A program made the position numbers and the translations under genes. Positions 1-24,611 of a stretch of 24,611 nt of DNA are shown piece by piece. The DNA is from a virus: positions 1-24,611 of IMG/VR virus record IMGVR_UViG_3300024433_000051; one strand, given 5' to 3'. The first letter of the stretch is position 1. Every line of letters starts with the position of its first letter. A model generated the notes under the pieces. The model did no database searches, had not been told where the DNA came from, and saw only the letters and a list, made by a program, of their open reading frames with translations.

Positions 1-2
1 GA

Positions 3-3000
3 AAACTAAAGACAATAGACGCCAGCGTAGGACAGTTTCAGAGAAACGTAGGTAATTATAGCCAGGCTTTTAGTAAGCTAGGCGGGGTTTTTAAGAATAT
101 TCGTAATGTAGTCGGACAGCTAGGCGTAGCTTTAGGCGGAATAGCTATAGCTAGAGGTGCTTTTGAAACTATAAAAGAATTTGACCAATCTACGGCTAAC
201 TTGTCGGCAATACTTGGGAAGACAAAAGACGAAATTCCAGGGTTAATAAATCAAGCGAAATTACTAGGTAGTACAACATCATTCACAGCTACTCAGGTTG
301 CTGAACTTCAAACAGAATTAGCGAAATTAGGCTTTACAACTGTTGAGATTGAACAATCAGCGGAGGCTGTTCTGAAATTAGCTAAAGCAACAGGTGCTGA
401 TTTAGGTGCTGCTGCTGCATTAACTGGGTCTGCATTAAGAGCGTTTAATTTAGATGCTTCTGAGTCTGGTAGGGTTGCAGCTGTTCTAGGTGTCGCAACT
501 ACAAAAACCGCCTTAGATTTTCAGAAACTTGAAACAGGGCTTTCAACTGTTGCCCCCGTTGCTGCTGCGTTTGGATTCTCTATTGAAGAAACAACTGCTT
601 TATTAGGGCAACTTTCAAACGCTGGCTTTGATGCTTCGAGTAGTGCAACTGCGACTAGAAATATTCTATTAAATTTAGCTGATGCAAACGGAAGCCTAGC
701 AAAAGCACTAGGAAGACCAGTAACAAATGCGAAAGAATTAGCGGAAGGATTGCAAGAATTAGACGCTAAAGGAATTGATTTGGCTAAATCCCTAGAGTTG
801 ACAGATAACAGGTCTGTGGCTGCTTTTCGAACGTTCTTAAAAGGTGCCGAGACTTTAAATCCTTTAGTTGATTCATTGACGGATGTTGAAGATGCGTTAA
901 CAAAAATTGCGGACACTCAGGACGACACTTTACAGGGGTCACTAGATAGATTAACGTCTGCTTGGGAGGGTTATATTTTGGCAGTAAATGAGGCTGGGGG
1001 AGTCGGTGAAAGTTTTAAAAATTTCATTGATTTTATTGCTGAGAATTTACCTTTAATTTTAGACACATTATTAAAATTAGTTAGAGCTTTTGTAGTTTGG
1101 AAAACGGTTACAATAGGATTAAAAAGCGTTCTTATTCCTTTAGGTAAGGGAGTTGTCGGTTTGAGTAAGGGCATGGTTGGATTAATAAAAGGAACAAAAA
1201 GCGCCTCAGTTTCTTTTAAAAGTTTAAATACAGCAATGAAAAATAACGTGATAGGACTTATTATAGCTGGTGTAATTGAATTAGCTAGTCAATTAGATTT
1301 ATTCAGTAGCGAGGTGGATAGAATATCAGATAGAATTGACGCTCAATTAAAAAGAATAAGCGAAATAAGAGACCAACAAAGAAAGCAAACTCAAGAAATA
1401 CTAGATAATGGGTCAAAAGAATTTAAGCAAAAAGTAAAAGCTTTAGAATTAGCAGCTAGAGAGGCTAAAATAGGTAAATCTAAAGAAGAACAGGAGCGTA
1501 TTCAATCTAATTTCTTGAAAGAACAAAACGCGCTTTATGATGCTAGGATAGGAAAAATAGGGGCTGCCATTTTAGTTAATGAAGGAGTATATTCTTTACA
1601 GAAAAAACAAACAAAAGAACTTGAAAATGAAGTTAAACAATCTGAAGCTTTCCTTAAAAATTTAAAAGAAACTCAACCACAACAAACAGAATTAATAAAA
1701 TCTTTAGCAGCTAAAATAAGACTAGGAAAAAAAGAATTAGACGACATTTTAGAACCTAGACTTAAAACTGAAACAGCTTTAAATACACTTAAAGCCGAAC
1801 AACTTGATTTATTAGATGAGGCAGCTAACTTAGGACTTGATATTAAAGAAATAGATGTAGAAAGAGCGAAGAACACTAAAGCTGCTAAAATAACTGAGGT
1901 AAATTATGAAAAAGAATTGCTAGAGATTCAACTTAAAAGGACTTTAGACGATAAAGAAAAGATAGTTATAGGTAATAAATTAGCTAATATTGCAGCAAGA
2001 GAGAAGTTTGATAAGTTGATTGCAGAAAAAAGAACTAAAAAAGAAAAAAAAGTTTTAAGAGAACTTTTATCTTTAACGATTGAACTTAATAATGTGGAGC
2101 AAAAAAGAGCATTATTTGCTTTAAAGAGTCAAAGAATTCAAGCCCTTGAGAATGAAAAAGAATTACTAGAGGATATTATTCGAGAAATAAACGAAGTTAA
2201 TAATTCAATTGATAATCGAGTTGATGATGTTTCAATTGAAATTCTTCAAAAAAGAAATGAAAAATTAAGGGAGAACTTAAACAATCAAAGTCAATTGAAT
2301 GAACTTATAAAACAACAGGGTTTTATATCAGACTTCTTAATATCTCAAATAGACAGAGAAGAAAAAGCTAGAAAGGACGCTTTAAACGACCAAATAGAAG
2401 ACAGAAAAGAATTACTTAAAATTCAATTAGATGGATTGAATTTATTAATAGCAGAAGGAGCTGCAAGTGAAGAGCAAATAGCACAGGCGAAAATATTAGA
2501 TGAAGAGTTAATTAAACTAGAAGAGTTAAAGCAAAAAAGTCTAATTGATATAGAAGACGATGCAAATAAAAGACGTGCGGACGCCAGGAAGAAAAAAGCC
2601 GAAACTATAGAAAACGACGCTAAATTATTAGCTAAGAACCAAATAGACCAGTACAAAAAATTAGCCGAAGTCGTTTCGGATATTTTCGAAGGTATTACCG
2701 ATATAATAAGCAAAAACATAGACAAGCAAATAAAAAAACTAGACGAACAATTAGAAGCTAGTAAGGAAAGACAAAGCCAGTTAAGGGATTTAGCTATAAA
2801 TGGCCGAGGTCAAGCCGCCGACGATGCTAGAAAAAGCTTAGTAGCTGAAGAAAGGGCCGCCGCTGTAGCTGAAGCGAAAAAAGTACAGTTAGAAAAAAGA
2901 AAAAAACAGTTAGAAAGCGTAGGAATTATACTTAAAAATATAGGTAATTTAGTAGAAGCTGGCGACTCAATACCTGAAGCTACAGCTAAAAGCGTCGCGT

Positions 3001-3470
3001 CTTTCCAAGTGGTTAAAGAAGTGCTACAAAGCCTTCCAGCCTTCTATAAAGGTACGGACGATACAGGGACAGTTAACCAGTCTTTAGATAGTAACGGCGG
3101 GCGGCTTGCTGTAGTTCACGATAATGAACAAATTTGGAGCAAAAAAGACAGGGGCGCCGTAGGATTTAAAAGCAGGGACGAAATAAAAGAAATAGTTTCT
3201 AAATACGAAAGTATAAACGACCCGAATAAATTTCAGTTCAGAATGTTAAATAAAGCGGACGAAATGCGAGGTTTACAGCAATCAATAAGCGAAGTTAACG
3301 TATTCGACACTATGGCGATAGAAAGCAAGCTAGACGCGCTAAAAAAAGCTATAATAAACAAGCCTGTTCCTAATGTTGAATTAGGAGAAATTACGGCTGC
3401 TTTTGTTAACATAATTAAAGACCACGGAAACGGCAGGCGAACTATTCATAAAATTAAGAAGCCTATGTAA
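3..3470 (+). CDS. Phage tail tape measure protein, 5' end outside window
   Basis: Tape measure proteins set tail length and are thought to pass into the cell envelope during DNA ejection. The frame is open from the first bases of the window, so the gene starts upstream; a TTG at 201 is internal and should not be taken as the start. About 1155 residues are visible. The first ~300 residues resemble the TP901-type (PhageMin_Tail) minor tail region, rich in Ala/Leu/Thr. A hydrophobic stretch follows near 1060-1160 and again near 1230-1280. From about 1310 to 2930 the product is Lys/Glu/Gln-rich with long predicted coiled coils. The C-terminus carries FYKGTDDTG and a VVHDNEQIW segment, a tail end I associate with Bacteroidota phage tape measures. 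Asp codons are mostly GAT up to about 2300 and mostly GAC afterwards. The role is secure; the exact N-terminus cannot be seen. Confidence 0.9.
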   Translation, partial: KLKTIDASVGQFQRNVGNYSQAFSKLGGVFKNIRNVVGQLGVALGGIAIARGAFETIKEFDQSTANLSAILGKTKDEIPGLINQAKLLGSTTSFTATQVAELQTELAKLGFTTVEIEQSAEAVLKLAKATGADLGAAAALTGSALRAFNLDASESGRVAAVLGVATTKTALDFQKLETGLSTVAPVAAAFGFSIEETTALLGQLSNAGFDASSSATATRNILLNLADANGSLAKALGRPVTNAKELAEGLQELDAKGIDLAKSLELTDNRSVAAFRTFLKGAETLNPLVDSLTDVEDALTKIADTQDDTLQGSLDRLTSAWEGYILAVNEAGGVGESFKNFIDFIAENLPLILDTLLKLVRAFVVWKTVTIGLKSVLIPLGKGVVGLSKGMVGLIKGTKSASVSFKSLNTAMKNNVIGLIIAGVIELASQLDLFSSEVDRISDRIDAQLKRISEIRDQQRKQTQEILDNGSKEFKQKVKALELAAREAKIGKSKEEQERIQSNFLKEQNALYDARIGKIGAAILVNEGVYSLQKKQTKELENEVKQSEAFLKNLKETQPQQTELIKSLAAKIRLGKKELDDILEPRLKTETALNTLKAEQLDLLDEAANLGLDIKEIDVERAKNTKAAKITEVNYEKELLEIQLKRTLDDKEKIVIGNKLANIAAREKFDKLIAEKRTKKEKKVLRELLSLTIELNNVEQKRALFALKSQRIQALENEKELLEDIIREINEVNNSIDNRVDDVSIEILQKRNEKLRENLNNQSQLNELIKQQGFISDFLISQIDREEKARKDALNDQIEDRKELLKIQLDGLNLLIAEGAASEEQIAQAKILDEELIKLEELKQKSLIDIEDDANKRRADARKKKAETIENDAKLLAKNQIDQYKKLAEVVSDIFEGITDIISKNIDKQIKKLDEQLEASKERQSQLRDLAINGRGQAADDARKSLVAEERAAAVAEAKKVQLEKRKKQLESVGIILKNIGNLVEAGDSIPEATAKSVASFQVVKEVLQSLPAFYKGTDDTGTVNQSLDSNGGRLAVVHDNEQIWSKKDRGAVGFKSRDEIKEIVSKYESINDPNKFQFRMLNKADEMRGLQQSISEVNVFDTMAIESKLDALKKAIINKPVPNVELGEITAAFVNIIKDHGNGRRTIHKIKKPM

Positions 3471-3475
3471 AAAAA

Positions 3476-3501
3476 AAAGGCCCAGAACAAACTGAGCCTT
3501 T
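3476..3501 (-). terminator. Hairpin after tape measure gene, best oriented for minus strand
   Basis: AAAGGCCCAG and CTGAGCCTTT pair over 10 positions with one mismatch around the loop AACAAA. A run of ten A precedes the stem on the + strand, so the strong U-tract would follow the stem in minus-strand transcripts; in the + direction only UUU follows. It may act in both directions, weakly in +. It separates the tape measure gene from the next tail gene. Confidence 0.6.
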
Positions 3502-3555: not shown

Positions 3556-5301
3556 ATGAAAACGAAACTAATATTCGAATTAAATAACGAGCCAGCAAAC
3601 AACCCGCGAGAATTATCGGATATTTCGGTAGTTTCAGAATGGAGCGACGAAGTAAGCGAAGCCGAAGTAAGTTTAGCGAAATTCTCTTTAGTTTTAGAAG
3701 AAGCTAAGAAGATAGATAATTTTATAGACCAGTATTCTAGGTTTCAAGGGATGCCTTATAATATATTTATAACTGACGGAATAAGCCAGGAGCAGGTTTT
3801 TAACGGTTTTATTAATTTAAAAACAGCCGTAAAAGTTGGCTGCGCTGAATACCAGGTAGACGTAGAAAAAAGACTGGGAGCTAATCAATTTTCAGGACGC
3901 GCAGACGCTATAAGCTTCGAACTATTATACCAAGAAGGGTTCTTAACTAATTCGGATTTTGTTTACGTGCCTTATGTTATAAATTATATTCCAGACGGAA
4001 CGCAGGTTTTAATTCTACAGCTTACTCTTTTTATGATGGGAAAGGAATTATACGAAGCTATCGAGCGTTTCCAGAAGTCAATTACTGAAGCCATTAAGTT
4101 AATACCAGATATTATAGTAGGGACGGCCGCTGAGGTTGCTAAAGTTGGCCAGATAGCAGCTATAATTTTAAATCTAATTTTTCAATTAGCCTATTTAATA
4201 GCTATAGTAATAGCTATAATTAAATTAATGAACGATTTAGTTAGACAGTTTTTTCCTAAATTAAGGTATCACGTAGGAATTAAATATAAAAACTTAATGG
4301 CGGCTGGCGTAAAGTATTTAGGTTTAGAAATGCAGTCTACTATTTACGATTCTAATGTATGGGGTAATTCAGTATATTTGCCTATGCAATCCGAAGAGGG
4401 GTTATCGCAGCCTTCAGGAGGTATAGGCTATCCTAGGGCTGGCGATAGTATTTACACTTTAGGCGACCTAATTAGAAACGAGCGGCAAAAATACAAAGCT
4501 AAATATAAAATTACTGGGAATATATACGAATTCGAAAGAAAGGATTTCTGGAAAAGCCAAGCGTCTTACTTACTTCCAGATGTAGTTAGCGACCAGGAGC
4601 AAGCAGACAATATATTCAGAACTAACGCCGAAGAATTCGTAGGTCTTTATAAAATAAACTTTTCTACGGACCCAGAAGACAAAAACACTAGCGACAGGTT
4701 CGACGGTACAAACGTAGCTATAAGCACTACGTTAGACGCGGTTTTAGATATAGAATTAGATTTAACGCAAGGCGGCACAGAAATAGGGTTAGTAGAAGCT
4801 AGAGGCACTAGAAAAGACACGTTAACGCCAGTTGAAAAAGTCGTAAGGGGTCTTTTTAAGTTCGTCGACCTATTGACTGGTATATTGGGAGGTGGTACTA
4901 GCTTTGCTAGTAAAATAGACGCTAGAATAGGCGCTTTAAATTTATCTAGTTACATAACTACGGCGCCAAAAATGCTAATAATGAACGGGAATAAGCTTCA
5001 GTCTGGACAGCAGCAGTTATTAACAGCGCTAAAGCTTTGGCAGGAATTCCACTTTATAGACAGTTTTAACCCAATTAACGGAATACACAACCAGAGGGAT
5101 ATTTACGAAAACGTACAGATTCCTTTTTGTTACGAAGATTTCGTAACTTTGCTTAATAATAACTTTTTTAATACAGTTGATAACGGCAAAGGAGAAATAA
5201 CCAGATTAGAATGGTTTTTAGAAGATAATAAAGCTATAATTAACTATAAAATAGAAAGACTTGAAACGGAAAATTTTATAACGAATATTTATGAAGGTTA
5301 G
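3556..5301 (+). CDS. Tail protein with one internal hydrophobic segment
   Basis: A 581-residue protein directly after the tape measure gene, the position of distal-tail or baseplate-hub proteins in many phages. I do not recognise a named family. Residues 1-130 look like a compact beta-rich domain. Residues about 198-224 form a long uninterrupted hydrophobic helix (QIAAIILNLIFQLAYLIAIV), preceded by another amphipathic stretch at 175-195. The rest is soluble, with acidic and aromatic segments. The start ATG follows an A-rich leader (ACGAAAAAAA), as at most genes here. It overlaps the following gene by 11 bp. A membrane-insertion or channel role during ejection is an inference from the hydrophobic helix; a structural tail role is inferred from position only. 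Confidence 0.75.
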   Translation: MKTKLIFELNNEPANNPRELSDISVVSEWSDEVSEAEVSLAKFSLVLEEAKKIDNFIDQYSRFQGMPYNIFITDGISQEQVFNGFINLKTAVKVGCAEYQVDVEKRLGANQFSGRADAISFELLYQEGFLTNSDFVYVPYVINYIPDGTQVLILQLTLFMMGKELYEAIERFQKSITEAIKLIPDIIVGTAAEVAKVGQIAAIILNLIFQLAYLIAIVIAIIKLMNDLVRQFFPKLRYHVGIKYKNLMAAGVKYLGLEMQSTIYDSNVWGNSVYLPMQSEEGLSQPSGGIGYPRAGDSIYTLGDLIRNERQKYKAKYKITGNIYEFERKDFWKSQASYLLPDVVSDQEQADNIFRTNAEEFVGLYKINFSTDPEDKNTSDRFDGTNVAISTTLDAVLDIELDLTQGGTEIGLVEARGTRKDTLTPVEKVVRGLFKFVDLLTGILGGGTSFASKIDARIGALNLSSYITTAPKMLIMNGNKLQSGQQQLLTALKLWQEFHFIDSFNPINGIHNQRDIYENVQIPFCYEDFVTLLNNNFFNTVDNGKGEITRLEWFLEDNKAIINYKIERLETENFITNIYEG

Positions 5302-5555: not shown

Positions 5556-8237
5556 ATGCCTGTAAGAATTAATCAAGTAAGAAGAACGGACCCGCAATTT
5601 AACGGCGAAAATACAAGTCATTTTATAGGCAATATTAACGACTGGAAAAAAACAGAAATTAATATTCAGGTTTATTCTTTACACCAGTCGAATATAGAAA
5701 CTTATATGCAAGTTTCTTCGGATTCAGCTAATTTTTCCAGAATCCAGCTTCTAAATGGAAAATGGTCAGACGAAGGTATCGTAGTAGGTTCTGAATTATA
5801 CGCGGGTATCTTTATAGAAGACTTGGCGCCAGGTAACGAAGGCAATATAATTCAGCGTAATTTTTACAGAAGGGAACACGGCGGCGCACCTCCTAAAGTA
5901 ACTTTTGTAAGTCCAGACGATACTATAATAGAAGTAGACGATAATATTAATAACTGGGACGATTCAGATTTCATAGGTTTAAATAGGCTTTTTCCGTCCC
6001 AAAGAGTAGAAGATTTTCAGACGGGTTGGCTAGAAGCTTATATTTTTCAGGTTTTACCTATAGAAGCTGGCGAGGTCTTTTATAATTATTTACCTAATTC
6101 TCAAAAACAAAGTAATAGCCTATTTTCCTTAATAGATGGGACTATAGGGCGTTTTTCTTTAAATGGATTAGACCCAACTAACGGAACTTATCAAACAGCT
6201 ACGCAGCTAGGTTTAAAATCTGGTAGCGCTGTTAAATCAGTTCGTATAAAATCTATTCCTAACGCTTTAAATCCTTCTGGTTATTACAATATACCAGGAA
6301 CACCTTTACCAGATTTAGACGGAAATAATACGTTGCAATTAGTACAAAAAGGGCGCGTTATTTCAGTTTTTAATATAGAAATAATTCATAAAATAATAGG
6401 AGTAGAAGAAGACCCTAGTAATTTACCAGACAATACGCCGCCCGAATGGTTTTTTGATAACGAAAGCTTAGCGGACACTTTTTTATTTAAAATATTCCCT
6501 AAATATTCAGACCAAAATATATATTTAGCCTCAGACCAAAAGTCTAGTCTAATACAAGTAGACGGAAATATAGGCTGGATAGACGAAAATTACAACGGAA
6601 GGCCGCAGCCTTATTCTGTAGAAAGTGTAGAATATAAGAATTTACTAGGTACAGTTTTATCGGATTTAGATTACGGGAATACTACGCGCGTTAATATTAT
6701 CGTAAATAATCCAACACACACAACAGACAGCCTTTACGCTTTAGACTGGCAATATTTACCAAATTTATCTGAACAATATAAAAACAATACTAGAAGCTAT
6801 TTAAACAACACTATTCAGAATACACCTGTATTTTACAACGCATTTAACGGCGTAGATATTACAGGGCTTTTAAAAGAAGGTATTTTTACGCCTATTTATC
6901 TAGGTTTAGAAAACGAAGAAGGCGCTAGATTAGATTTTACAGAATTAGAAGTAATAAATATAGGGGGCGGTCAAGTATTAATAACATTTAAAACTGTTCC
7001 CAATACTGAGTTTTTTGTTTATATCGACCAACTAGAAGACGATAATAAAAGATTTTTATTTACTATAGGGGTTTCAAATCCAGTTGAAGACATAGAGGAA
7101 AACGACTCAACTAGATTAAAGGTAATAGGAGATTTAGAATTTACGCCAATTCCTGCGGGTCCTTACCCTGGAATGAGTAACTTTTTTAATGAATTGCCAG
7201 TAAGCCCAAGTACAAACGGCGCTACAAATTGCGTAGGATTTCCAGAGGATTTATGGTTAAGTCAGACTAGATTTACGATAGACCCTACTAGCGGGATAGT
7301 TTTTCAGAAAATCACCCCAATGATAGAGCTGGTAAACTCTTCTAACGGTTTGTCTGTTACTTTAGATTCAGTAGAAATTAACGTAGCTAATCAGCCTTTA
7401 GACGGGAACGGCGTACAGCAAATAAATACATTTAATACACGCGGATTTTTAGTTATTCCTTCACACGATAAGAACTTTTTAAACGTAGTCAGGGAGCCTT
7501 TAAACGATGTTGCGCCGAATTACGCTTATTTATTACAGTTTGGTTTTAGGATTCGTTACGAAGATTGGATAAAAAACGCAGACATACCAGCGGATTTTTA
7601 CGACGCACTACAGCAAAACGATGGCTTTAATAATTTCTGGACCTGGCTAGAGCAGTCGCCCTACGAAATTAAATATTCTGTTCTTTCGCAAGTGGACAGA
7701 GTAGGAACGCAGGTTTTCTTTAAAAATTCATTCCCAATTACTTTAAACAATTATTTTACAGTCCTTCCGATAACGCCAGAATGTAGGCACTTCGACGAGG
7801 CTACAGGCTTGCCGCTTTTTCAGGGCGTAATAGACGGATTAGACACTAATTCGATAATGAGCCAAGGCCTTACAAGAGTAAGACAGGATTATATTTTAAA
7901 TGCTGGTATTTATCCTTTAGCTGGAATATATGCCGAATGTAATTTAGAAGTTTTTGAGGGCGGCGGCTGGAAGACTTTAGAAACACTTTCTACTGAATAC
8001 GCAGGATTAGCTAATAGCCCAATAAAGCCAGACGGTTTAAACGGCGTTTTTTTAACTTTAATTAGGGTTTCAGACACTTTACTAAGGGCTGAATGTCTTA
8101 TAGACCCTAGCTTTTTAACTGGCTCTAGTGTAAAATACAAAGTTTCTGGAAGAATCGGCTGTAGTTCAGGAAATAAACTGCCTACACTACCTTCAGGAAG
8201 TCCTTATAATTCGAAATATAATAGTAAATATTTATAA
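5556..8237 (+). CDS. Large probable baseplate or tail fibre protein
   Basis: 893 residues, rich in Asn, Asp, Tyr, Pro and Gly with few charged helices, the composition of a beta-structured virion protein. No TM segment or signal peptide. I recognise no catalytic motif. The C-terminus ends in a low-complexity piece with a repeated NSKY. It starts 13 bp after the preceding stop and ends 1 bp before the next gene, so it lies inside a single tail operon. Size and place between the tape measure and the lysis genes fit a baseplate, tail-tip or fibre-base protein. Function is inferred from position and composition only. Confidence 0.75.
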   Translation: MPVRINQVRRTDPQFNGENTSHFIGNINDWKKTEINIQVYSLHQSNIETYMQVSSDSANFSRIQLLNGKWSDEGIVVGSELYAGIFIEDLAPGNEGNIIQRNFYRREHGGAPPKVTFVSPDDTIIEVDDNINNWDDSDFIGLNRLFPSQRVEDFQTGWLEAYIFQVLPIEAGEVFYNYLPNSQKQSNSLFSLIDGTIGRFSLNGLDPTNGTYQTATQLGLKSGSAVKSVRIKSIPNALNPSGYYNIPGTPLPDLDGNNTLQLVQKGRVISVFNIEIIHKIIGVEEDPSNLPDNTPPEWFFDNESLADTFLFKIFPKYSDQNIYLASDQKSSLIQVDGNIGWIDENYNGRPQPYSVESVEYKNLLGTVLSDLDYGNTTRVNIIVNNPTHTTDSLYALDWQYLPNLSEQYKNNTRSYLNNTIQNTPVFYNAFNGVDITGLLKEGIFTPIYLGLENEEGARLDFTELEVINIGGGQVLITFKTVPNTEFFVYIDQLEDDNKRFLFTIGVSNPVEDIEENDSTRLKVIGDLEFTPIPAGPYPGMSNFFNELPVSPSTNGATNCVGFPEDLWLSQTRFTIDPTSGIVFQKITPMIELVNSSNGLSVTLDSVEINVANQPLDGNGVQQINTFNTRGFLVIPSHDKNFLNVVREPLNDVAPNYAYLLQFGFRIRYEDWIKNADIPADFYDALQQNDGFNNFWTWLEQSPYEIKYSVLSQVDRVGTQVFFKNSFPITLNNYFTVLPITPECRHFDEATGLPLFQGVIDGLDTNSIMSQGLTRVRQDYILNAGIYPLAGIYAECNLEVFEGGGWKTLETLSTEYAGLANSPIKPDGLNGVFLTLIRVSDTLLRAECLIDPSFLTGSSVKYKVSGRIGCSSGNKLPTLPSGSPYNSKYNSKYL

Positions 8238-9139: not shown

Positions 9140-10774
9140 ATGTACCCACTAATTAACATAGAAGCAAGGGCTGGCGGTCCAGAATTAGAAGAAGTAACCT
9201 TTAAGACTGAGTTTAACGGATTAGTTAACTTTACTTTAACTAAATCTGGTAGCGCTGTTAACTGGGATATGGGGGACGGGACTTTATTTATTAATACGAA
9301 TACAGTTAACCACACTTACACAGACGGAACAGAAAAAACGGTAACAATATTCGCGGACGATTTGAGTTTAATAACTGAATTTGGGACGCTTACAGCAAAG
9401 GAAATAACAGAAGTAAATTTTCAAAATTTAGATAGCCTAGGCGGTTCTTTTATTGCGTCGTTTAACCCAAATCTTACAGGCTTGAATATGCCGACTAATT
9501 CGGCTACACCTTTTACTACTTTTTGGGCCTATAATTGCGACTTAACAGGTGCTTTAGATTTAAGCGGCTGTATAATTCAGGGACTTTTTAGGGTTGACGC
9601 GAACAACAGCTTAACAAGCATTTTACATAGTTCAAACGCCACGCAATTTACTACAAATTATAGGGCGAATAATTGCGATTTAACAGGCGCCCATAATATG
9701 CAAGGGGTTAAAATTCAGTCTGGACAATTTGCAATTCAGGCAAACAATAGCTTAACAGCTTTGAATTTGAATACTAATATTAGCCAAACTTCAAATAATT
9801 TTACTTTTAATAATTGTGATATAACAGGCGCTTTAGACGTGTCTTTCATTGAAATAACGAACGATTTTAGAGCGTACTCAAACGCTAATTTAACGGGTAT
9901 AACACACAAAGCGACAGCAACGGCTTTAAATATTTATCTAGCATTTAGCACAGGATTAACTACTTTAGATTTATCAATGTTAAGCAATTTAGGGGGTAAT
10001 GTGAAAATACACGCTTGCCCTAGTTTAACAAGTATAACTTTTCCGACAAACTCAGCTACGCCTACTACACAGATGCACATTTACTCTAATCCGTTAGTTA
10101 CTTCATATGATTTAAGCGGATTCGATTTAGGCGGGGAATTATTTTTAGGACAAAATAACGCATTAACAGTAGTTACGTTTAGAGCTACTTTAGGCGCTGC
10201 TACTCTTACTTATACTCAATTTTATAACTGCTCTGCCTTAACTAGCTTAGATTTTACTAATTTAAGACTTTCGCAAAGAATTTTAGGAAACAACACCCCG
10301 AACTTAACTAGCTTAACTTTTGGGGTAAACAATTTAGCACATTATTTAGTACAAATAGGCGGCAACGGATTAACGAACTTAGATTTAACTAATTTACCGT
10401 TTTCAGTTTCTACAGATTTTAGAACCGAAAGCAGCCCGAATTTAACTACCTTAACGCTTCCGTCGGATGTTAGCGGTAAATTCTTGAATTTAGACGTTTA
10501 CGACTGTCCTAATTTAGGGGTTATAGATTTCTCAGTTATGCCAAACTGTTTAACTTTAGACAATGCAGACTTTAGACTAACGGCTAACGCTTGGACAGCT
10601 GCAGAAGTAAACGAAACGCTAGTAATTTTAGACAGTATCTCTTTAGCTGGTAATTCTGGTAGAATTGTCCATGTTCAAACAAATACGGCGCCAGACGGAA
10701 CTAGCGGCGGTTTTGATGGTTTAACAGCTAAAGCTAATTTAATAATTAAAGGATTTTCAGTAACAACAGATTAA
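9140..10774 (+). CDS. PKD plus leucine-rich-repeat tail protein, candidate receptor-binding protein
   Basis: 544 residues. Residues about 20-75 match a PKD-type Ig fold: the WDMGDGT turn followed by NHTYTDGTEKTVTI. Residues about 77-460 are roughly 15 irregular leucine-rich repeats of 22-25 residues, such as LTSLDFTNLRL, LTTLDLSML and LTSITFPTNSATP. Two repeat types alternate: one with an LDLS/LDFT strand, the other ending in a Thr/Ser-rich loop. The last ~70 residues (TAAEVNETLVILDSI, then NTAPDG and GLTAKANL) resemble a C-terminal domain often found on Bacteroidota phage and surface LRR proteins. No signal peptide, so it should reach the virion by assembly and not by secretion. Ligand-binding repeats plus position suggest receptor recognition; the target is unknown. 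Confidence 0.7.
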   Translation: MYPLINIEARAGGPELEEVTFKTEFNGLVNFTLTKSGSAVNWDMGDGTLFINTNTVNHTYTDGTEKTVTIFADDLSLITEFGTLTAKEITEVNFQNLDSLGGSFIASFNPNLTGLNMPTNSATPFTTFWAYNCDLTGALDLSGCIIQGLFRVDANNSLTSILHSSNATQFTTNYRANNCDLTGAHNMQGVKIQSGQFAIQANNSLTALNLNTNISQTSNNFTFNNCDITGALDVSFIEITNDFRAYSNANLTGITHKATATALNIYLAFSTGLTTLDLSMLSNLGGNVKIHACPSLTSITFPTNSATPTTQMHIYSNPLVTSYDLSGFDLGGELFLGQNNALTVVTFRATLGAATLTYTQFYNCSALTSLDFTNLRLSQRILGNNTPNLTSLTFGVNNLAHYLVQIGGNGLTNLDLTNLPFSVSTDFRTESSPNLTTLTLPSDVSGKFLNLDVYDCPNLGVIDFSVMPNCLTLDNADFRLTANAWTAAEVNETLVILDSISLAGNSGRIVHVQTNTAPDGTSGGFDGLTAKANLIIKGFSVTTD

Positions 10775-12670: not shown

Positions 12671-13288
12671 ATGGATAAGATTTTTTTACTAGACGCTGGA
12701 CACGGCGGCGTAATAGATGGGGTTTACCAAACTGCGGGAAAACGTAGCCCAGTCTGGCCAGATGGAACGCAATACTTTGAAGGCGAAGGCAACAGGCTTA
12801 TTAGGGACGAAATAATTAAGATTATGAAAGAAGAAGGCCTGCGCTATAAGATTATAAGCGAAGGCAGAAAAGACACTTCTTTAAGGGAGCGAGTAAGAGC
12901 CGCTAACGCTTTAGCTAAAAAATACGGTGTAAGTAATTGCGTTTACGTTTCTATTCACTCTAACGGTGCCACAGCCTCAGCTGAAGGCTGGGAGGTTTTC
13001 ACTTCTAAAGGGCAAACAGATTCGGACAAGTACGCGACAATAATTTACGACGAAATGAAAAAACTATTTCCAGGGTCTAAATTTAGGTCCGACAAATGGA
13101 GCGACGGCGACGTAGACAAAGAGTCAGGATTTACGGTTTTATCCGATACTATTTGCCCGTCCATACTTACAGAAAACTTTTTTCATACAAACAAAAACGA
13201 ATGTAAGAGCATTTTAATGAATAGACAGGGGAGAAAACTAATAGCGCTAGGTCATGTTAACGCCTTTAAAGTGATAAATTCACTATGA
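12671..13288 (+). CDS. N-acetylmuramoyl-L-alanine amidase (Amidase_3), endolysin
   Basis: 205 residues. Zinc-dependent amidases of this family cut the bond between MurNAc and L-Ala of peptidoglycan. The expected parts are present: LDAGHGG with zinc ligand His11, an EGEGN segment (Glu37/Glu39) supplying the Glu ligand, VSIHSNG with His96, and ILTENFF with the catalytic Glu168. It is a bare catalytic domain without a cell-wall-binding or signal segment, which fits release through a holin. The holin gene overlaps its stop by 4 bp (ATGA). Family membership is clear; the lysis role follows from the adjacent holin and spanin-like genes. Structural tail hydrolase is the less likely alternative. Confidence 0.9.
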   Translation: MDKIFLLDAGHGGVIDGVYQTAGKRSPVWPDGTQYFEGEGNRLIRDEIIKIMKEEGLRYKIISEGRKDTSLRERVRAANALAKKYGVSNCVYVSIHSNGATASAEGWEVFTSKGQTDSDKYATIIYDEMKKLFPGSKFRSDKWSDGDVDKESGFTVLSDTICPSILTENFFHTNKNECKSILMNRQGRKLIALGHVNAFKVINSL

Positions 13289-14716: not shown

Positions 14717-15235
14717 ATGTCAGACACAAAAACACACTACAGAAAAGCTTATAAATCGGACCACTTAGGGACGCCAGATTTAGAAGAATTAATAGAAGAA
14801 GGGAAGAAATTAGTATTTACTATCGACCACGTTACACAGAACATATTAACCCCAGGCGTAAAAGGAACTGGTATTAGTGTAGCTGGCCGAGTTATAAGCG
14901 CGAATATAGCGCACTTCAAAGAAGACATTAAGCCTTTAGTTTTGAATTCAACTAACGGAAAAATGATTAAAAAATTCGCTAATAGTTCGTTTATAGAAGA
15001 CTGGAAAAATATTTTAGTAGAACTATACATAGACTCAGCCGTAAAAATGAAAGGTACAGTAGTCGGAGGAATTAGAATTAGAAGTGTTCAGCCAGTAAAA
15101 GCTAAACACGTACTTACGCCAGATTCGCCTAAGTGGGAAGTAGCTAAAAAACGAGTAGCCGAAGGAATGAGCGAAAGCGAATTAAAAAACCACTTTGAAA
15201 TTACTAACGAAAATTTTAAATTATTATGTTCGTAA
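14717..15235 (+). CDS. OB-like phage replication/recombination-associated protein
   Basis: 172 residues. The central segment KPLVLNSTNGKMIKKF, then SSFIEDWKNILVELYIDSAV, then GTVVGGIRIRSVQP, resembles a family found beside recombination and replication genes in many phages; its pattern is an N-x-T-N segment, a DW-GK-like strand and a GxRIR strand. I believe these have an OB-like fold, but I cannot name a confirmed family. The C-terminus (about 140-172) is a separate helical piece ending in a SESELKNHFEI-type helix. It overlaps the exonuclease gene by 10 bp. Single-strand annealing or exonuclease-partner activity is inference from context, since no RecT or Erf homologue is seen. Confidence 0.6.
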   Translation: MSDTKTHYRKAYKSDHLGTPDLEELIEEGKKLVFTIDHVTQNILTPGVKGTGISVAGRVISANIAHFKEDIKPLVLNSTNGKMIKKFANSSFIEDWKNILVELYIDSAVKMKGTVVGGIRIRSVQPVKAKHVLTPDSPKWEVAKKRVAEGMSESELKNHFEITNENFKLLCS

Positions 15236-15849
15236 ATATAGACCAGAATACCGAAGAATGGCACTTTTTTAGATTAGGCAAAATAACAGCCTCTAATTTT
15301 GGGTCCGTAATGGCAAACGAAGGTAAAGCTTTCGGGGACCAAGCGAAAAAATACGCTGAAAGGATAGCTTTAGAAATAGTAACAGGCCGATTAGATGAAA
15401 GCTCAGGTTTTAGTAATTCTTTTATGGACAGGGGCCACGAATTAGAGCCTGTAGCTAAGGAATTATACGAATTAGAAACTATTCAGACAGTTAAAAACGG
15501 CGGCTTTCATTATATTGAAAATTATATAATTAAAATAGGAGCAAGCCCAGACGGTCTAGTAGGTCAAGACGGCTTAATAGAGATAAAAAGCGTAATACCG
15601 CATACGCAATTCAAAACAATAAAAAGAAATTCGTTCGACCCGTCTTATAAATGGCAGCTTTACGGCCACTTATTAATAACTGGGCGTAAATGGTGCGACT
15701 TTGTAAGTTACTGCCCAGAAATGCCAGAAAAAAAGCGTTTAATTATACATAGAGTAGAAAGGGACGAAGAAACATTAAACAGACTTAAAAATAGGTTAAT
15801 TCAATTTATTGGACTAATTCAGGAAAATATAAATTTATTAAATGATTGA
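15226..15849 (+). CDS. YqaJ-type (lambda Exo-like) 5'-3' exonuclease
   Basis: 207 residues, the usual length for YqaJ nucleases, which resect double-stranded DNA for single-strand annealing recombination. Motifs in order: RLGKITAS (16-23), RGHELEP (69-75), SPDG with Asp109, IEIKS with Glu119 and Lys121 (the PD-(D/E)xK core), and WQLYGHL (Gln144). All catalytic positions are kept. It overlaps both neighbours (10 bp upstream, 8 bp downstream), which suggests the three proteins are made together. No signal of decay. Confidence 0.9.
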   Translation: MFVNIDQNTEEWHFFRLGKITASNFGSVMANEGKAFGDQAKKYAERIALEIVTGRLDESSGFSNSFMDRGHELEPVAKELYELETIQTVKNGGFHYIENYIIKIGASPDGLVGQDGLIEIKSVIPHTQFKTIKRNSFDPSYKWQLYGHLLITGRKWCDFVSYCPEMPEKKRLIIHRVERDEETLNRLKNRLIQFIGLIQENINLLND

Positions 15850-16731: not shown

Positions 16732-18939
16732 ATGGCAGTAAAAATAGAAAGGGCTTTAGGGCTTTTACAGAAAAACTACAGTATAATTCCAATAGGACCG
16801 AAGAAAATACCAGCGTGTAAGTGGTCCAAATATATGAAGGAAAGAATTACTGAAGAAGAATTAAGAAAATATTCAAGTTCTGAGGGTTTCGGAATTGTAA
16901 CAGGTTATAACAACGTAGAGGCTATAGACGTAGATTTAAAAGTATTATCTACCCTTACAGAACAGCAAAACTTTTGGAAAGAATACTACAATTTTTTAAA
17001 AGACAATATAGAAGACTTCGATAAAAAAGTAGTAATAAGAAAAACTAAAAATAACGGCTACCATTTAATTTATAGATGTGAAGAAATAGAAGGCAATCAA
17101 AAATTAGCAAAATTAGAAGGCCACAAAGAAGCAATAATAGAAACTAGGGGAATAGGTGGTTATATTTTTATCTATGAAAACCAGGTAGGCGACTTAGATT
17201 ATACAGACCTTCAGGAAATTTCTATTTTAGAAAGGGGAATGATTATTGAAATATCTAAATATTACGACTTCAAACAAGAAACAATAAATTTAGATAAAGA
17301 AGCTAAAAGGGTAAACTACAATACAGAAACGACGCCCTGGGAAGACTATAATAATAAGCACACGGCTCTAGATGTAGTTAGCGACGAATTCGACGTGGTG
17401 GCTAATTTATCGGATAAATACATAATTAAACGGCTAGGGGCCAGTTCGGCACATTCAGGTTATATTTATAAAAACTCTAATTGTATGTATCTTTTTTCTA
17501 CTGGGACCCACTACCCAGCAGAAACACTTTTAAACGCTTTCGCTTGTTATACTTTCAGGTATCATAACGGCGATTTTTCCGCAGCTGCTAAGGAAGTTTA
17601 TAAGGAGGGCTACGGCGACAGGGTTATAAAAGAAGTCGAAGACCTTAAAAATACATTTAGGCCTGAAGACTTAAGCTTCCCTATAGATATTTTCCCAGAA
17701 AACTACCAAAGATATATTTTCGAGTGCTACCAGACCTTAGACGCTTCTATAGATTATATGGGCTGCAGTTTACTATGGGCTTTATCTTTAATAATTGGGA
17801 ATACAATTAACGTTGAAGTTAAAAAAGGCTGGAAAGAAAACGTAAATATCTGGATAGCATTAATAGGAAAGGCTGGCGTAGGTAAAACCCCTTCTATAGA
17901 TAAAATTATATTTCCACTACTAAAACAGAACACGCACGAAATAAAGCTTTACAGAAAAGAATACCAAAAATACGAAGACTTTAAGGCTAAGGAAAAATCT
18001 GAGCAGGATAAAACAGCCTCAGTAGATAAGCCTAGACAAAGCCAATTTATAGCGAACGACGTAACTAACGAAGCTTTAGTCCAAATGCACGAAGAAAATA
18101 AAAACGCTATAGCTGTATTTAAAGACGAGTTAGCGGGCTGGTTTAAGGATATGAACAAATATAGAGCGGGGTCAGATTTAGAATTCTGGCTTTCGTCCTG
18201 GTCTGGAAAGTCTGTTACTCTAAATAGAAAGACTTCAAAAAACAGTTTTGTAGAAAAGCCTTTAATTCCAGTTCTGGGAGGGATTCAACCTAGTATTTTA
18301 GATAGTTTTTACACGGATGAAAATAAAGATAACGGCTTTATAGATAGAATTTTATTTAGCTATCCTGATTTAAACGTAGAAAGCTATAACGAAGACGAAA
18401 TAAACCCGCAGCTTTTAGAATGGTACGAAGGCAGTTTAATAAAATTATACAACCACGCTAAAAAGCATTTACTAAGATTCAACGCAGACGATGAAGTAGA
18501 GCCGCACACAGCCGTATTTAGTAAAGCAGCTAGAAAGGAATGGATTAGAATATTTAACGAAATCACAGAAATGCAGAACAGCGAGACGGAAAACGAGTAT
18601 ATGAAAAGTATGTTACCTAAGCAAAAGTCTTATATTCCTAGATTTGCCCTTCTTATTAATTACATTAATTCAGACGATGAAAATAACGCTTTCGAAATTA
18701 GTAAGGAATCAATGTTAAAAGCGGAAAGTCTTAGTAATTACTTTGTAGCTATGGCTAAAAAGATTAAGATTCAAACATTTGAAAATAAAACAGCTAAGGA
18801 AATAATAGGCCTTACTAAAAATAAATCGAAAAAAGACCAGGCTGTAGAGATTCTTAAAAATAACCCAGATTTTAGTAAAGTAGAACTGGCTGAAATGTTA
18901 GACGTAAGTCGTAAAACTGTTTATAATTGGTTAAAATAA
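16732..18939 (+). CDS. Primase-polymerase / DUF3987 ATPase replication protein
   Basis: 735 residues with three parts. Residues 1-150 match the bifunctional primase/polymerase (Prim-Pol) domain: GPKKIPACKW, GFGIVTGYNN, catalytic IDVD (65-68), His111 in NNGYHLIYR, and ETRGIGGYI (137-145). Residues about 315-600 match DUF3987, an ATPase/helicase-like domain: Walker A GKAGVGKTPS (379-388), Walker B-like AVFKDEL (461-467), then LGGIQPSIL and GFIDRILFSYP with Arg539 as a possible arginine finger. The last ~22 residues are a helix-turn-helix (VELAEMLDVSRKTVYNWL). One polypeptide could thus prime, unwind and bind the adjacent origin repeats. The ATG is 36 bp after the repeats. Domain calls are strong; origin binding by the HTH is inference. 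Confidence 0.88.
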   Translation: MAVKIERALGLLQKNYSIIPIGPKKIPACKWSKYMKERITEEELRKYSSSEGFGIVTGYNNVEAIDVDLKVLSTLTEQQNFWKEYYNFLKDNIEDFDKKVVIRKTKNNGYHLIYRCEEIEGNQKLAKLEGHKEAIIETRGIGGYIFIYENQVGDLDYTDLQEISILERGMIIEISKYYDFKQETINLDKEAKRVNYNTETTPWEDYNNKHTALDVVSDEFDVVANLSDKYIIKRLGASSAHSGYIYKNSNCMYLFSTGTHYPAETLLNAFACYTFRYHNGDFSAAAKEVYKEGYGDRVIKEVEDLKNTFRPEDLSFPIDIFPENYQRYIFECYQTLDASIDYMGCSLLWALSLIIGNTINVEVKKGWKENVNIWIALIGKAGVGKTPSIDKIIFPLLKQNTHEIKLYRKEYQKYEDFKAKEKSEQDKTASVDKPRQSQFIANDVTNEALVQMHEENKNAIAVFKDELAGWFKDMNKYRAGSDLEFWLSSWSGKSVTLNRKTSKNSFVEKPLIPVLGGIQPSILDSFYTDENKDNGFIDRILFSYPDLNVESYNEDEINPQLLEWYEGSLIKLYNHAKKHLLRFNADDEVEPHTAVFSKAARKEWIRIFNEITEMQNSETENEYMKSMLPKQKSYIPRFALLINYINSDDENNAFEISKESMLKAESLSNYFVAMAKKIKIQTFENKTAKEIIGLTKNKSKKDQAVEILKNNPDFSKVELAEMLDVSRKTVYNWLK

Positions 18940-20639: not shown

Positions 20640-20990
20640 ATGAGCCAAATTGTAAAAGGAATTTTAAAAGAAAAATTCGAAGAATTGCAAGTAACAGACA
20701 GCTTTAAAAAGCGTGAATTTATTTTAACTACTGATAATTCAAGCCAATACCCGCAAGAAATTAGCTTCCAATTATCACAAGCGAAAACAGATTTAATAGA
20801 CCCTTATAAAGTAGGTCAGGAAGTCGAAGTAAGCTACAATTTAAGAGGGCGAGCCTGGACCAATCCACAAGGCGAAGTAAAATATTTTAACACGCTAGAC
20901 GCTTGGAAAATACAACCTGTAGGAAATGCAGCGGCACCAAAAGCAGCGGCGCCAGATAGTTTAAGCGACGAAGACGATTTACCTTTTTAA
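20640..20990 (+). CDS. DUF3127 SSB-like single-stranded DNA-binding protein
   Basis: 116 residues. The KREFILTT strand, PQEISFQL, KVGQEVEVSYNLRGRAW and VKYFNTLDAWKI match DUF3127, a Bacteroidota family with an OB fold. An Ala-rich linker leads to an acidic tip SDEDDLPF, very like the DDDIPF tail by which SSB proteins recruit partner enzymes. It probably coats single-stranded DNA during phage replication. It lies among replication genes and ends 1 bp before the next gene. The family match is strong, and the SSB role is a well-supported inference. Confidence 0.85.
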   Translation: MSQIVKGILKEKFEELQVTDSFKKREFILTTDNSSQYPQEISFQLSQAKTDLIDPYKVGQEVEVSYNLRGRAWTNPQGEVKYFNTLDAWKIQPVGNAAAPKAAAPDSLSDEDDLPF

Positions 20991-20991
20991 T

Positions 20992-21286: not shown

Positions 21287-21372
21287 TGGGAATTATTATT
21301 TTAATATTTATAATTTATTTTCTACACAAGCTTAGTAAAAGCGACTTTGTAGATAATCAAAAATTTTATTAA
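21286..21372 (+). CDS. Mini-gene, 28-residue membrane peptide
   Basis: MGIIILIFIIYFLHKLSKSD then FVDNQKFY. The first 13 residues are one hydrophobic helix and the rest is polar. Its ATG shares an A with the previous stop (TAATG) and its stop abuts the next ATG (TAAATG). It fits exactly between two genes, which favours translation. Function unknown. Confidence 0.5.
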   Translation: MGIIILIFIIYFLHKLSKSDFVDNQKFY

Positions 21373-21663
21373 ATGACTATACTAGACGATTATATTAATA
21401 ATATTATAAAGCAGCACAAAGAAAGCATTATAAGCGACAGAATCGCCATTAACCAAATTAAAGAACTTTATTCGATGTTTGAGCCAAACGACCTAAGAAG
21501 GATTAAGATAAAATTAAGCCATAATATTATTAATTATAAAGAAGCCTGCGATAAAATTAGCCAAATAGTTAAAAACGACTATAAAGCTGAATTAAGGGAG
21601 CTAGCTAAAGACAAACCTAACGACCAGGAATTAGGCGCTTTTTTTAGAAAATTAATAGAATAA
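21373..21663 (+). CDS. Small helical early protein, unknown function
   Basis: 96 residues, mostly charged helices (INNIIKQHKESIISDRIAIN, DLRRIKIKLSHNIINYKEAC), no TM segment. Starts directly after the stop of the previous mini-gene. It is the last gene before the packaging promoter. No family recognised. Confidence 0.65.
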   Translation: MTILDDYINNIIKQHKESIISDRIAINQIKELYSMFEPNDLRRIKIKLSHNIINYKEACDKISQIVKNDYKAELRELAKDKPNDQELGAFFRKLIE

Positions 21664-21680
21664 ATTAAACAAGCCAGTCT

Positions 21681-21713
21681 TTTAAGGCCTAAAATAGAAT
21701 TTCAGTATATTTG
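21681..21713 (+). promoter_or_regulatory. Probable promoter of packaging genes
   Basis: TATATTTG (21706-21713) is a perfect TAnnTTTG -7 box, with a TTTA at 21681-21684 about 21 bp upstream as a weak -33. It lies 24 bp before the ATG at 21738, in the 74-bp gap between early and packaging genes. It does not share the TTGTATTACATTT motif of the other promoters. Confidence 0.5.
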
Positions 21714-21737
21714 TATTAATAATAATTTTTTTTAAAA

Positions 21738-22043
21738 ATGGAAAAAATAGACGGACGTAAAAATAACGGGGGCCATAAGACAGCAGGCAGAAAGTCAAAA
21801 GCTGAGGAATTAGGGCTTAATATCTTAATGGACGAAATAAAGCCTACTAAAGAAGTGCTGCAGCAGATAGCAGACATTATAGACGATATAGATGCAGACG
21901 ATAAAACTAAACTTAGTGCGTCTATGGCTTGGCTAGGCTACAGAATAGGGAAGCCTAAAGAGCGTAAAGAAATTACGGTAGCTAAAGATAATAATTTCCC
22001 AGAATGGCTAGACGATGAAAGCGATGAAAGCGACGAAAATTAG
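21738..22043 (+). CDS. Putative terminase small subunit
   Basis: 101 residues. Starts MEKIDGRKNNGGHKTAGRKS, a basic Gly/Arg/Lys patch (GRxxNGGH-xxGRKSK) typical of small terminase subunits in Bacteroidota phages; a helical region follows (EVLQQIADIIDDIDADDKTK, then SMAWLGYRIG), and the tail is acidic (DDESDESDEN). Small subunits bind pac/cos DNA and load the large subunit. It lies two genes before terL behind its own promoter. The call relies on motif memory and position; the fold is not proven. Confidence 0.65.
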   Translation: MEKIDGRKNNGGHKTAGRKSKAEELGLNILMDEIKPTKEVLQQIADIIDDIDADDKTKLSASMAWLGYRIGKPKERKEITVAKDNNFPEWLDDESDESDEN

Positions 22044-22224
22044 TAAGGAAGAATTATTAAATAAATGGTACGTTCTGAACGCCTTAAGGCCCTGCGTTGA
22101 AGACGTAGCTAAAAAAGTTTCTATTAATTCTTCAGAGTCGATAAAAGAAGAAGCTTTAGAAACAATGGCTACAATTATTAACAAACTAATGGATTCAATA
22201 GAAAAAAGCCTAGGCTATGAGTAA
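22015..22224 (+). CDS. Small protein between terminase genes
   Basis: 69 residues, helical, with ATG at 22015 or 22024 (start reads MKAMKATK, so two starts nine bases apart). It overlaps the previous gene by 29 bp, where the repeated GATGAAAGC encodes ESDESDEN in one frame and MKAMKATK in the other. It overlaps terL by 8 bp. It may be a second packaging or regulatory subunit; no family recognised. Confidence 0.6.
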   Translation: MKAMKATKISKEELLNKWYVLNALRPCVEDVAKKVSINSSESIKEEALETMATIINKLMDSIEKSLGYE

Positions 22225-23338
22225 AAAAGCCAATCCTAATTATACTTATCTAAAAGAAAACGTACCTAAACACAGGTACACGCTTTTACAAGGGGGTACA
22301 AGGTCTGGTAAGACTTTTTCTTCGTTATACTATATTATCTACCTTTGCACCACTTACAACGGCTTAGAAATCGACATAGTTAGAGAAACATTCACGGCGT
22401 TAAAGGCTACTGTATGGAAAGACTTAAAGGAATTACTTGTAAAGCACAACCTTTACGACCCTTATAAGCATAATAAGACAGATAAAATTTACGAACTAAA
22501 CGGAAATTATATTAACTACTACGGGACCGACGACCCGCAAAAGGTCCACGGTAGAAGCCGAGACTTTATTTACATAAACGAAGCTAACCAATTAGACAAA
22601 GAAACAATAGACCAGCTATTCCCAAGGACCAGGCACCGTATAATAATGGACTATAACCCAGCTATGCCTGTAGAACATTGGTTAGACGAATACATAGAGA
22701 AAAGCCCGCCTTTAATAACTACTTACTTAGATAATCCACACCTTACAAAAGCACAAATACAGGAAATAGAAGACAGAAAAAAAGATTCTTTCTGGTGGAC
22801 TATTTACGGAACAGGCGAGCGCTGCAGGCCTGCAGGCGTCATAATAGAAAATTGGTCTGAAGGCGAATTCGACGAATCTATACCGTTTATCTGGGGTATG
22901 GACTTCGGAGTAAACGACCCTACTACACTCGTTAAAGTAGGAATAAGCGAAAATAAACTATTTGTTAAAGAGTATCTTTATAGTTCTGACCTGTCCAGCT
23001 CTAAGATAGTCGATATTATTAAAGCGCACGTAGGCCCTAACGAATTTATAGTAGCCGATAATTCGGACCAATTAACTATTAACGATATACGTATAGCTGG
23101 CTTTAATGTTCAAAAAGCTGTAAAAGGTAAAGATTCAGTAAAGCACGGTCTTAGAAAGCTGCGCGATTATGAATTAATAGTAGACCCTAAAAGTATGAAT
23201 ATTAAGAAGGAATTATATTGCTACGTATGGGCCGACAACAAAAGCGAAACACCTGTAAAAGGAAACGACCACACTATAGACCCAATTAGATACGCCTTGC
23301 AAGTCCTGGACAGGCGAAAGGGATTCTTTGTTATTTAG
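22217..23338 (+). CDS. terL: Terminase large subunit
   Basis: 373 residues, a compact but complete large terminase, PBSX/Terminase_3-like. Packaging ATPase: Walker A GGTRSGKT (26-33), Walker B FIYINEA (117-123) with Glu122, coupling motif MDYNPA (144-149). Nuclease domain: MDFG with Asp229, VADNSD with Asp281, and DHTIDPIRYA (351-360) with the last acidic metal ligands. It drives DNA into the head and cuts the concatemer. It overlaps the upstream gene by 8 bp. Nothing phage-structural follows: the DNA after its stop changes character, which is unusual because the portal gene normally comes next. Confidence 0.92.
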   Translation: MSKKANPNYTYLKENVPKHRYTLLQGGTRSGKTFSSLYYIIYLCTTYNGLEIDIVRETFTALKATVWKDLKELLVKHNLYDPYKHNKTDKIYELNGNYINYYGTDDPQKVHGRSRDFIYINEANQLDKETIDQLFPRTRHRIIMDYNPAMPVEHWLDEYIEKSPPLITTYLDNPHLTKAQIQEIEDRKKDSFWWTIYGTGERCRPAGVIIENWSEGEFDESIPFIWGMDFGVNDPTTLVKVGISENKLFVKEYLYSSDLSSSKIVDIIKAHVGPNEFIVADNSDQLTINDIRIAGFNVQKAVKGKDSVKHGLRKLRDYELIVDPKSMNIKKELYCYVWADNKSETPVKGNDHTIDPIRYALQVLDRRKGFFVI

Positions 23339-23391
23339 TTTAGTAGTCTTATTCGTTATTTATAATGATTCTAAATTAGACTATAAGGATA

Positions 23392-23419
23392 TTTTGTATT
23401 GCATTTTGTTGTACATTTG
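23392..23419 (+). promoter_or_regulatory. Probable promoter after terL
   Basis: TACATTTG (23412-23419) is a perfect -7 box. The block TTTTGTATT, two bases, ATTTTGT, two bases, TACATTTG is nearly the same as at 14076-14103, with the same spacing. Upstream TTG is 15 bp away. An A-rich leader and a short frame at 23447 follow. Confidence 0.55.
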
Positions 23420-23446
23420 ATTAATTATTAATTAACAAAAAACAAT

Positions 23447-23503
23447 ATGAAACGGCTTTTTTGCTGTTTTATATTTGATGTTAGGCTTAGTATGGATTAT
23501 TAA
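23447..23503 (+). other. Short frame and hairpin between terL and first cassette gene
   Basis: ATG at 23447 opens 18 codons (MKRLFCCFIFDVRLSMDY). Inside it AAACGGC and GCTGTTT (23450-23469) form a hairpin with one G-T pair around TTTTTT. It may be a leader peptide, a broken cassette end or chance. A GTTAGGC that fits the integron core GTTRRRY lies at 23480, but that match alone is weak. Confidence 0.25.
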
Positions 23504-23515
23504 AAAAACTGAATT

Positions 23516-24004
23516 ATGAGTAAAAGACTTCGAATATTAAAAAACTCTTTGATTAAAAAAGAGCAACAATTTAACGACAAACTGCAAAACCATTTTAATA
23601 CGGTTAAGCAAGCTAACGGACAACCTTTGAACGACAAAAGAAACGGACAAGCAACCTTGAATAAATGGGATAGGCAAAACGAATCTTTGCGGAACTTAAA
23701 AGATAGTATTCAAAAAACAAAAGATGCTATTGAAAGAGAAGAAGGTAAAATAATGGACCTTGAACAAACGAATAAAATTATACCTACTGAAATATTGGAA
23801 TTGGTTGAGAAAGGCGAATTGGTGCAATGGCGTAAACACCCAAATACTTTCTTTGTACCTGATGTAGATAAGGCTCGAATTGTTTGGGATAACAAACGTA
23901 AAGTGGTTGCTCATAGATACGCTCACTTAATTACTGAACAGGAACAAAGGACTAAATTTGTTCGCTTGTATAATGGACTCAACTCTGTCTTAAATGGCAG
24001 GTAA
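23516..24004 (+). CDS. Coiled-coil cassette-type protein, unknown function
   Basis: 162 residues. Residues about 1-85 are charged coiled coil, including ANGQPLNDKRNGQATLNKWD and RNLKDSIQKTKDAIEREE; the C-terminal half is a small mixed domain with LVEKGELVQWRKHP, ARIVWDNKRKVVAHRY. I recall similar proteins scattered as single genes in Bacteroidota genomes, without known function. Codon use (GAC and GAT mixed, TTG for Leu, CAA) differs from the phage genes upstream. An imperfect palindrome follows 6 bp after the stop. It looks like a gene acquired as a unit rather than a phage gene. Confidence 0.7.
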   Translation: MSKRLRILKNSLIKKEQQFNDKLQNHFNTVKQANGQPLNDKRNGQATLNKWDRQNESLRNLKDSIQKTKDAIEREEGKIMDLEQTNKIIPTEILELVEKGELVQWRKHPNTFFVPDVDKARIVWDNKRKVVAHRYAHLITEQEQRTKFVRLYNGLNSVLNGR

Positions 24005-24010
24005 CGTGCC

Positions 24011-24045
24011 GCAGCTAAGCGGTCTTTTTAATGCCGCTTAGGTGC
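24011..24045. repeat. Imperfect palindrome after first cassette gene
   Basis: GCAGCTAAGCGG (24011-24022) and CCGCTTAGGTGC (24034-24045) pair with one mismatch around an 11-base loop. AAC (24003-24005) and GTT (24047-24049) lie outside the stem on each side. This recalls cassette recombination sites; it could also terminate transcription. Confidence 0.55.
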
Positions 24046-24096
24046 TGTTGTGCAATCGTAGCGGTTTATTTAGTACAAACTTTAATTGAAAACGAA

Positions 24097-24492
24097 ATGG
24101 AAGCAAAAAATTATAGAGTAGGAAATATTGTTGAACAACCGAGCCGAATAGGAAAAATATTAGAGGTTTGGCAGGATGCTGTAAGACTTGAAGGTTATAA
24201 TAATGGTTATGACTATAATCACACTAATCCAATTCATTTAAGTGAGAAATGGCTAAATGATTTTGGGTTTAAAAAGGAAGTGTTGAGTGATGATAGTGCG
24301 TACTATTACACACTTGAGTTAAATGATAATAAATATTGCGACTTATCAATTAGTAGTGGCGATAAAAACGGATTTATCGAGGTAACTTTATTTCCTTACG
24401 AAGAATGGTTTAGGTATAAATATGTCCACGAATTGCAGAATCTATTTTTTGCGATTACTGGCAAAGAACTTGAATTGAAAGAACTTGTGTAG
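24097..24492 (+). CDS. Cassette-type protein with LQNLFFAITGKEL ending, unknown function
   Basis: 131 residues from ATG 24097, chosen because the frame upstream to 24031 runs through the palindrome and reads as a non-native MPLRCCCAIV; the ATG is preceded by an A-rich leader TTGAAAACGAA. The layout is RVGNIVEQPSRIGKILEVW (start strand set), then IHLSEKWLNDFGFKK, and the end YVHELQNLFFAITGKELELK. This N- and C-terminal pattern is widespread in small proteins of Bacteroidota phages and mobile DNA; its function is unknown to me. A second imperfect palindrome follows the stop. Codon use is like the previous cassette gene. Confidence 0.7.
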   Translation: MEAKNYRVGNIVEQPSRIGKILEVWQDAVRLEGYNNGYDYNHTNPIHLSEKWLNDFGFKKEVLSDDSAYYYTLELNDNKYCDLSISSGDKNGFIEVTLFPYEEWFRYKYVHELQNLFFAITGKELELKELV

Positions 24493-24503
24493 CTATGTTA
24501 CAC

Positions 24504-24556
24504 AACGCTAAATGTATGAGCCGTATCCCGTAGGGTATGGCTTTATACATGGTGTT
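24504..24556. repeat. Imperfect palindrome with bulges after second cassette gene
   Basis: ATGTAT pairs with ATACAT, GCC with GGC, GTA with TAT (one G-T pair) and CCC with GGG, around a 3-base loop, with unpaired GA/TTT and an extra T (24526). Outer AAC (24504) and GTT (24554) are complementary. Extra bases on one arm are a trait of folded integron attC sites. The remaining 55 bp to the window end is AT-rich with no gene seen. Confidence 0.5.
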
Positions 24557-24611
24557 ATCTATTGCGTATTTAGAAAAATATTTAATTTATTTCTACTTTT
24601 TATTTGCGAAT

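Follow-up and report, generated by a model that had tools for sequence, protein, structure and literature searches.

The phage from which this DNA derives has very probably lost, under selection, every GATC and CCGG site and nearly every CATG site in the part of its genome seen here, its hosts probably carrying cognate Type II restriction systems. The DNA analysed (referred to below as the window) is the whole of IMG/VR record IMGVR_UViG_3300024433_000051, which is exactly as long as the window (24,611 bp; 34.5% GC).

The gene content indicates a fragment of a double-stranded DNA tailed phage of the Flavobacterium-phage type: terminase, tape measure protein and endolysin genes mark it as a dsDNA phage, as are the phages surveyed for site loss in PMC6286503. 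It is regarded as a fragment because the window start truncates the tape measure gene and the family matches include neither a portal nor a capsid gene. The coding share is 92.6%, and every gene with a family match is on the + strand (Table 1). A further protein in the tail module (positions 9140–10774), which is rich in Leu/Asn-type repeats and matches PKD only weakly and PHROG not at all, is possibly a tail fibre or adhesin. Among the ORFs with family matches in this 24.6 kb part of the genome there is no integrase, and PADLOC models gave no convincing match to ten small or unassigned window proteins.

Table 1. Genes with family matches and remaining CATG sites in the window.
Feature	Position	Strand	Basis
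Tape measure protein, N-terminus cut by window start	201..3470	+	ORF and PHROG tape measure families
Tail-module protein phrog_12387; phage-collection relatives in Flavobacterium phages only	3556..5301	+	PHROG
Tail-module protein phrog_12056	5556..8237	+	PHROG
Endolysin, Amidase_3	12671..13288	+	Family match
YqaJ-type recombination exonuclease	15226..15849	+	Family match
Primase-helicase (Prim-Pol and DUF3987)	16732..18939	+	Family match
Single-strand DNA binding protein (phrog_4932, DUF3127)	20640..20990	+	Family match
Terminase large subunit	22217..23338	+	Family match
Remaining CATG site	1172..1175		
Remaining CATG site	10670..10673		
Remaining CATG site	13253..13256		
Remaining CATG site	24548..24551		

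An exact count gives no GATC in the window, as the initial annotation had reported, among 348 occurrences of GAT (GATA 129, GATG 50, GATT 169). Its estimate of some 80 expected sites is right for base composition, which predicts 76. Synonymous-codon shuffling of the coding sequence, with protein and codon usage preserved, gives an expectation of 38.1 ± 4.6 there, and the lowest of 300 shuffles still contains 23. The Markov count that the annotation had proposed, made at maximal order on the window as part of a genome, yields 19.6, a value that underestimates the expectation, since ATC becomes rarer when GATC is lost. Chance is excluded as the cause of this absence. CCGG is likewise missing, with 21–24 sites expected under every null (21.8 Markov, 23.5 codon shuffle), and since both words are palindromes they are absent from both strands. 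CATG occurs four times, with expectations of 13.9 (Markov), 27 (codon shuffle) and 76 (base composition).

The thirteen remaining palindromic 4-mers (AATT, TTAA, ATAT, TATA, AGCT, TCGA, GCGC, GGCC, CTAG, ACGT, CGCG, TGCA and GTAC) show no comparable loss in the window under the Markov or codon-shuffle nulls and lie at 0.55 to 1.7 of expectation. By the elimination criterion of PMC6286503 (observed/expected below 0.1 with an expectation of at least 15), applied with our own Markov and codon-shuffle nulls rather than with the exact formula of that paper, GATC and CCGG are eliminated. The CA/TG dinucleotide is low in the window (rho* 0.71). Many non-palindromic 4-mers appear strongly depleted in the codon shuffle; this accompanies low CA/TG and GA/TC dinucleotides, and its interpretation as a restriction effect was rejected. 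The non-palindromic pair TGAC/GTCA was seen 48 times on both strands together, with 95 expected under the Markov model.

The removal of GATC proceeded by synonymous change, leaving the amino-acid content intact. Asp is followed by a codon starting with C in 50 of 462 cases (10.8%), a share matched by Asn, Tyr, Phe and Glu (10.6–10.9%). All 50 of these Asp codons are GAC and none is GAT, compared with NNT in 67 of 140 instances for the other two-fold pyrimidine codons before C (P=4e-12). The choice of the following codon is affected as well: Leu after GAT is encoded by TTR in all 32 cases and never by CTN, while after GAC it is encoded by CTN in ten of 19 and by TTR in nine, and none of the eight Ser codons following an NGA codon is TCN (P=1e-3). 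For CCGG, none of 81 Pro codons before G is CCG, versus 39 of 153 before other bases (P=9e-9), and NCC before GG is found in 0 of 105 cases versus 42 of 387 (P=2.5e-5). Words differing from GATC by one base occur at about normal frequency in the window, which argues that the loss of GATC is due neither to a general bias nor to C-to-T deamination. The corresponding codon-context tests for CATG are weak (P 0.001–0.09), and part of its deficit follows from the generally low CA/TG, which speaks against selection; GATC and CCGG are therefore called eliminated and CATG only probably selected against.

Comparison with homologous genes reveals the same route at individual sites. Conserved DP, DQ and DH pairs of the terminase that contain GATC in relatives are written GACC in the window, and for 33 of 50 GATC instances in the terminases of relatives the window encodes an identical amino-acid pair but with a disrupted site, mostly in this manner; these 50 are not independent, as several relatives contribute to each position. 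The same amino-acid pair is retained for 45 of 128 GATC instances in relatives of the primase-helicase, a gene in which the GATC, CCGG and CATG sites of relatives are replaced in the window, often synonymously.

The set of avoided words turns over rapidly among related phages. Relatives at 50–60% protein identity range from zero GATC to a 2.5-fold excess. In 33 terminase relatives from viral contigs, GATC lies mostly at 0.2–1.0 of the base-composition expectation; it is absent from two other terminase lineages (L032/L033/L034, and L037), is at a normal level in L038/L039, the sister group of L037, and is in about 1.8- to 1.9-fold excess in L011/L012 (records G004/G005). These last two records have neither CATG nor CTAG, and their GATC and GGCC are roughly 1.8- to 3.7-fold above base composition. 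Flavobacterium phage 1/32 (KJ018210) has no CATG, CCGG, CTAG or GGCC and contains 23 GATC sites, with 24 expected under the Markov model and 123 by base composition, and vB_FspS_tant8-1 (MN812239) has no CTAG, almost no GGCC and 212 GATC sites. Leaving the window aside, 64 primase relatives are 8 kb or longer; GATC is missing altogether from four of them, its ratio does not exceed 0.1 in ten, and the maximum is 2.5-fold. Five of the primase relatives (L069, L072, L073, L116 and L117) have 2.2–2.5 times the GATC expected from base composition, the opposite extreme to the window. On a 49-row primase tree, a quick reconstruction in which the placement of the window is uncertain and several short contigs have small counts, the 11 GATC avoiders require at least 11 changes; the same tree requires 10 changes for CCGG, seven for CATG, 15 for CTAG and 13 for GGCC. 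Eliminated sets that differ between relatives, with many changes over the tree, fit changing Type II repertoires of hosts rather than a fixed mutational bias.

Several other causes could in principle remove short words from a genome. Mutational or compositional bias, whether through deamination of GATmC and CmCGG or through host-typical codon usage, would do so without selection, and the enrichment of the CCAG/CTGG neighbours (178 versus 118 in the codon shuffle), like the dinucleotide biases noted above, is in keeping with it. However, bias rarely makes a loss complete, the one-base neighbours of GATC are about as frequent as normal, and relatives of similar GC content have normal or excess GATC. 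Moreover, Asp before C is typically written GAC at positions that read GAT in relatives; this T-to-C difference runs opposite to the deamination of C, and the amino-acid pairs are kept. We consider such a bias very improbable. The thought that the words were lost in assembly or library preparation, for instance because the DNA was digested at GATC and CCGG before sequencing, arises from the record being a metagenomic contig with open ends, but digestion would yield short contigs rather than one of 24.6 kb, like absences occur in cultured phages of this group with complete sequences, and the synonymous pattern of codon replacement, which is evolutionary, already refutes it; its probability is negligible. 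Deamination, codon usage and artefact were accordingly rejected as causes.

An alternative closer to restriction is that GATC is avoided on account of methyl-dependent (DpnI-type) cleavage or of interference from Dam-, MutH- or SeqA-like host functions, and not of DpnII/MboI-type enzymes. An orphan GATC methylase, M.FpsJIV, is prevalent in Flavobacterium psychrophilum (PMC11837570), and a prophage has been found to contain less GATC than its Dam-methylating host, which was read as the dodging of regulatory interference (PMC12570018). The evidence on GATC alone does not separate DpnII-like from DpnI-like or regulatory causes. The equally complete loss of CCGG would, however, need a separate cause, and the avoidance described in PMC6286503 is almost confined to orthodox Type II sites, so that we regard this alternative as very unlikely.

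Selection by Type II restriction is the best reading of these data, given the synonymous loss with protein sequence kept, the two or three palindromes affected together and the loss of other sets in relatives. A phage genome without a recognition site would escape cutting by the cognate enzyme; infecting genomes with fewer sites may have been destroyed by restriction less often, so that the sites eventually disappeared, for the most part by synonymous change. DpnII and MboI are the prototype enzymes for GATC, HpaII and MspI for CCGG and NlaIII for CATG. Orthodox Type II systems of the first two specificities, and perhaps also of the third, were probably present in the hosts that this lineage encountered. 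The initial annotation had attributed the loss to GATC-cutting systems; this is supported for GATC but, because GATC is not alone, it is only part of the story, and the absence of CCGG and near-absence of CATG extend the earlier observation.

The annotation had also seen no methylase encoded by the phage itself. No match to the DNA methylase families PF02086, PF01555 and PF00145 is present within the window, and the statement holds for these 24.6 kb only, since the window is a fragment without portal or capsid genes. Seven related records searched for Dam-family members gave no match. DNA methylase genes (N6_N4_Mtase, D12 class or DNA_methylase) were noted in six related records, those of loci L036 (G025), L026 (G016), L037 (G026), L023 (G013), L030 (G020) and L039 (G028); all three kinds occur together in G025, whose locus L036 is without CTAG.

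The host most likely belongs to the Bacteroidota, class Flavobacteriia, judging from protein similarity. This assignment is based on the phrog_12387 tail protein, for which all 32 matching phage records are from Flavobacterium phages (best identity 36–37%), and on the terminase, whose relatives in phage records include Bacteroides, Parabacteroides and Flavobacterium phages at 33–34% identity. The terminase and tail modules of the window have homologues in cultured Flavobacterium phages. Neither the single terminase sequence nor a terminase alignment retrieved a relative or prophage from genome_contigs, a direct scan of viral_contigs gave no relatives of the phrog_12387 tail protein or the tape measure protein, and terminase matches on plasmids were distant and uninformative.

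The avoidance of restriction sites by phages is well documented and the window is a new example of an established phenomenon; less ordinary are the elimination of two or three sites together and the speed with which the eliminated set changes from one relative to another. The case is unusually clean and internally controlled, in that the DNA word is gone and the protein kept while relatives with the same genes have dropped other words, and it suggests that uncultured flavobacterial phages bear an imprint of their hosts' restriction systems. We raise only tentatively, as a somewhat doubtful proposal, the idea that the set of absent palindromes changes fast enough in these phages to record the Type II repertoire of recent hosts; if true, host prediction for uncultured phages would become possible.

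Complete or almost complete elimination of sites has been described in about a tenth of viral genomes, mostly of non-temperate dsDNA phages, and concerns almost only orthodox Type II sites (Rusinov et al. 2018, PMC6286503). The window resembles those phages in the complete loss (ratio under 0.1) of 4 bp palindromic Type II sites, GATC being among the sites avoided there, and differs from them in losing at least two sites, probably three, together and in representing only part of a genome. Phages 1/32 and tant8-1 share with it a tail-protein family (36–37% identity) and the total absence of certain 4-mer palindromes, but the absent sets differ, GATC being kept in tant8-1 and Markov-normal in 1/32. 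On the host side, DNA transfer in F. psychrophilum is blocked by an HpaII-like CCGG system, and the species also encodes a GATC methylase, an orphan there (PMC11837570), from which it follows that both specificities exist in the host group, and indeed the genus, suggested by the relatives of the window.
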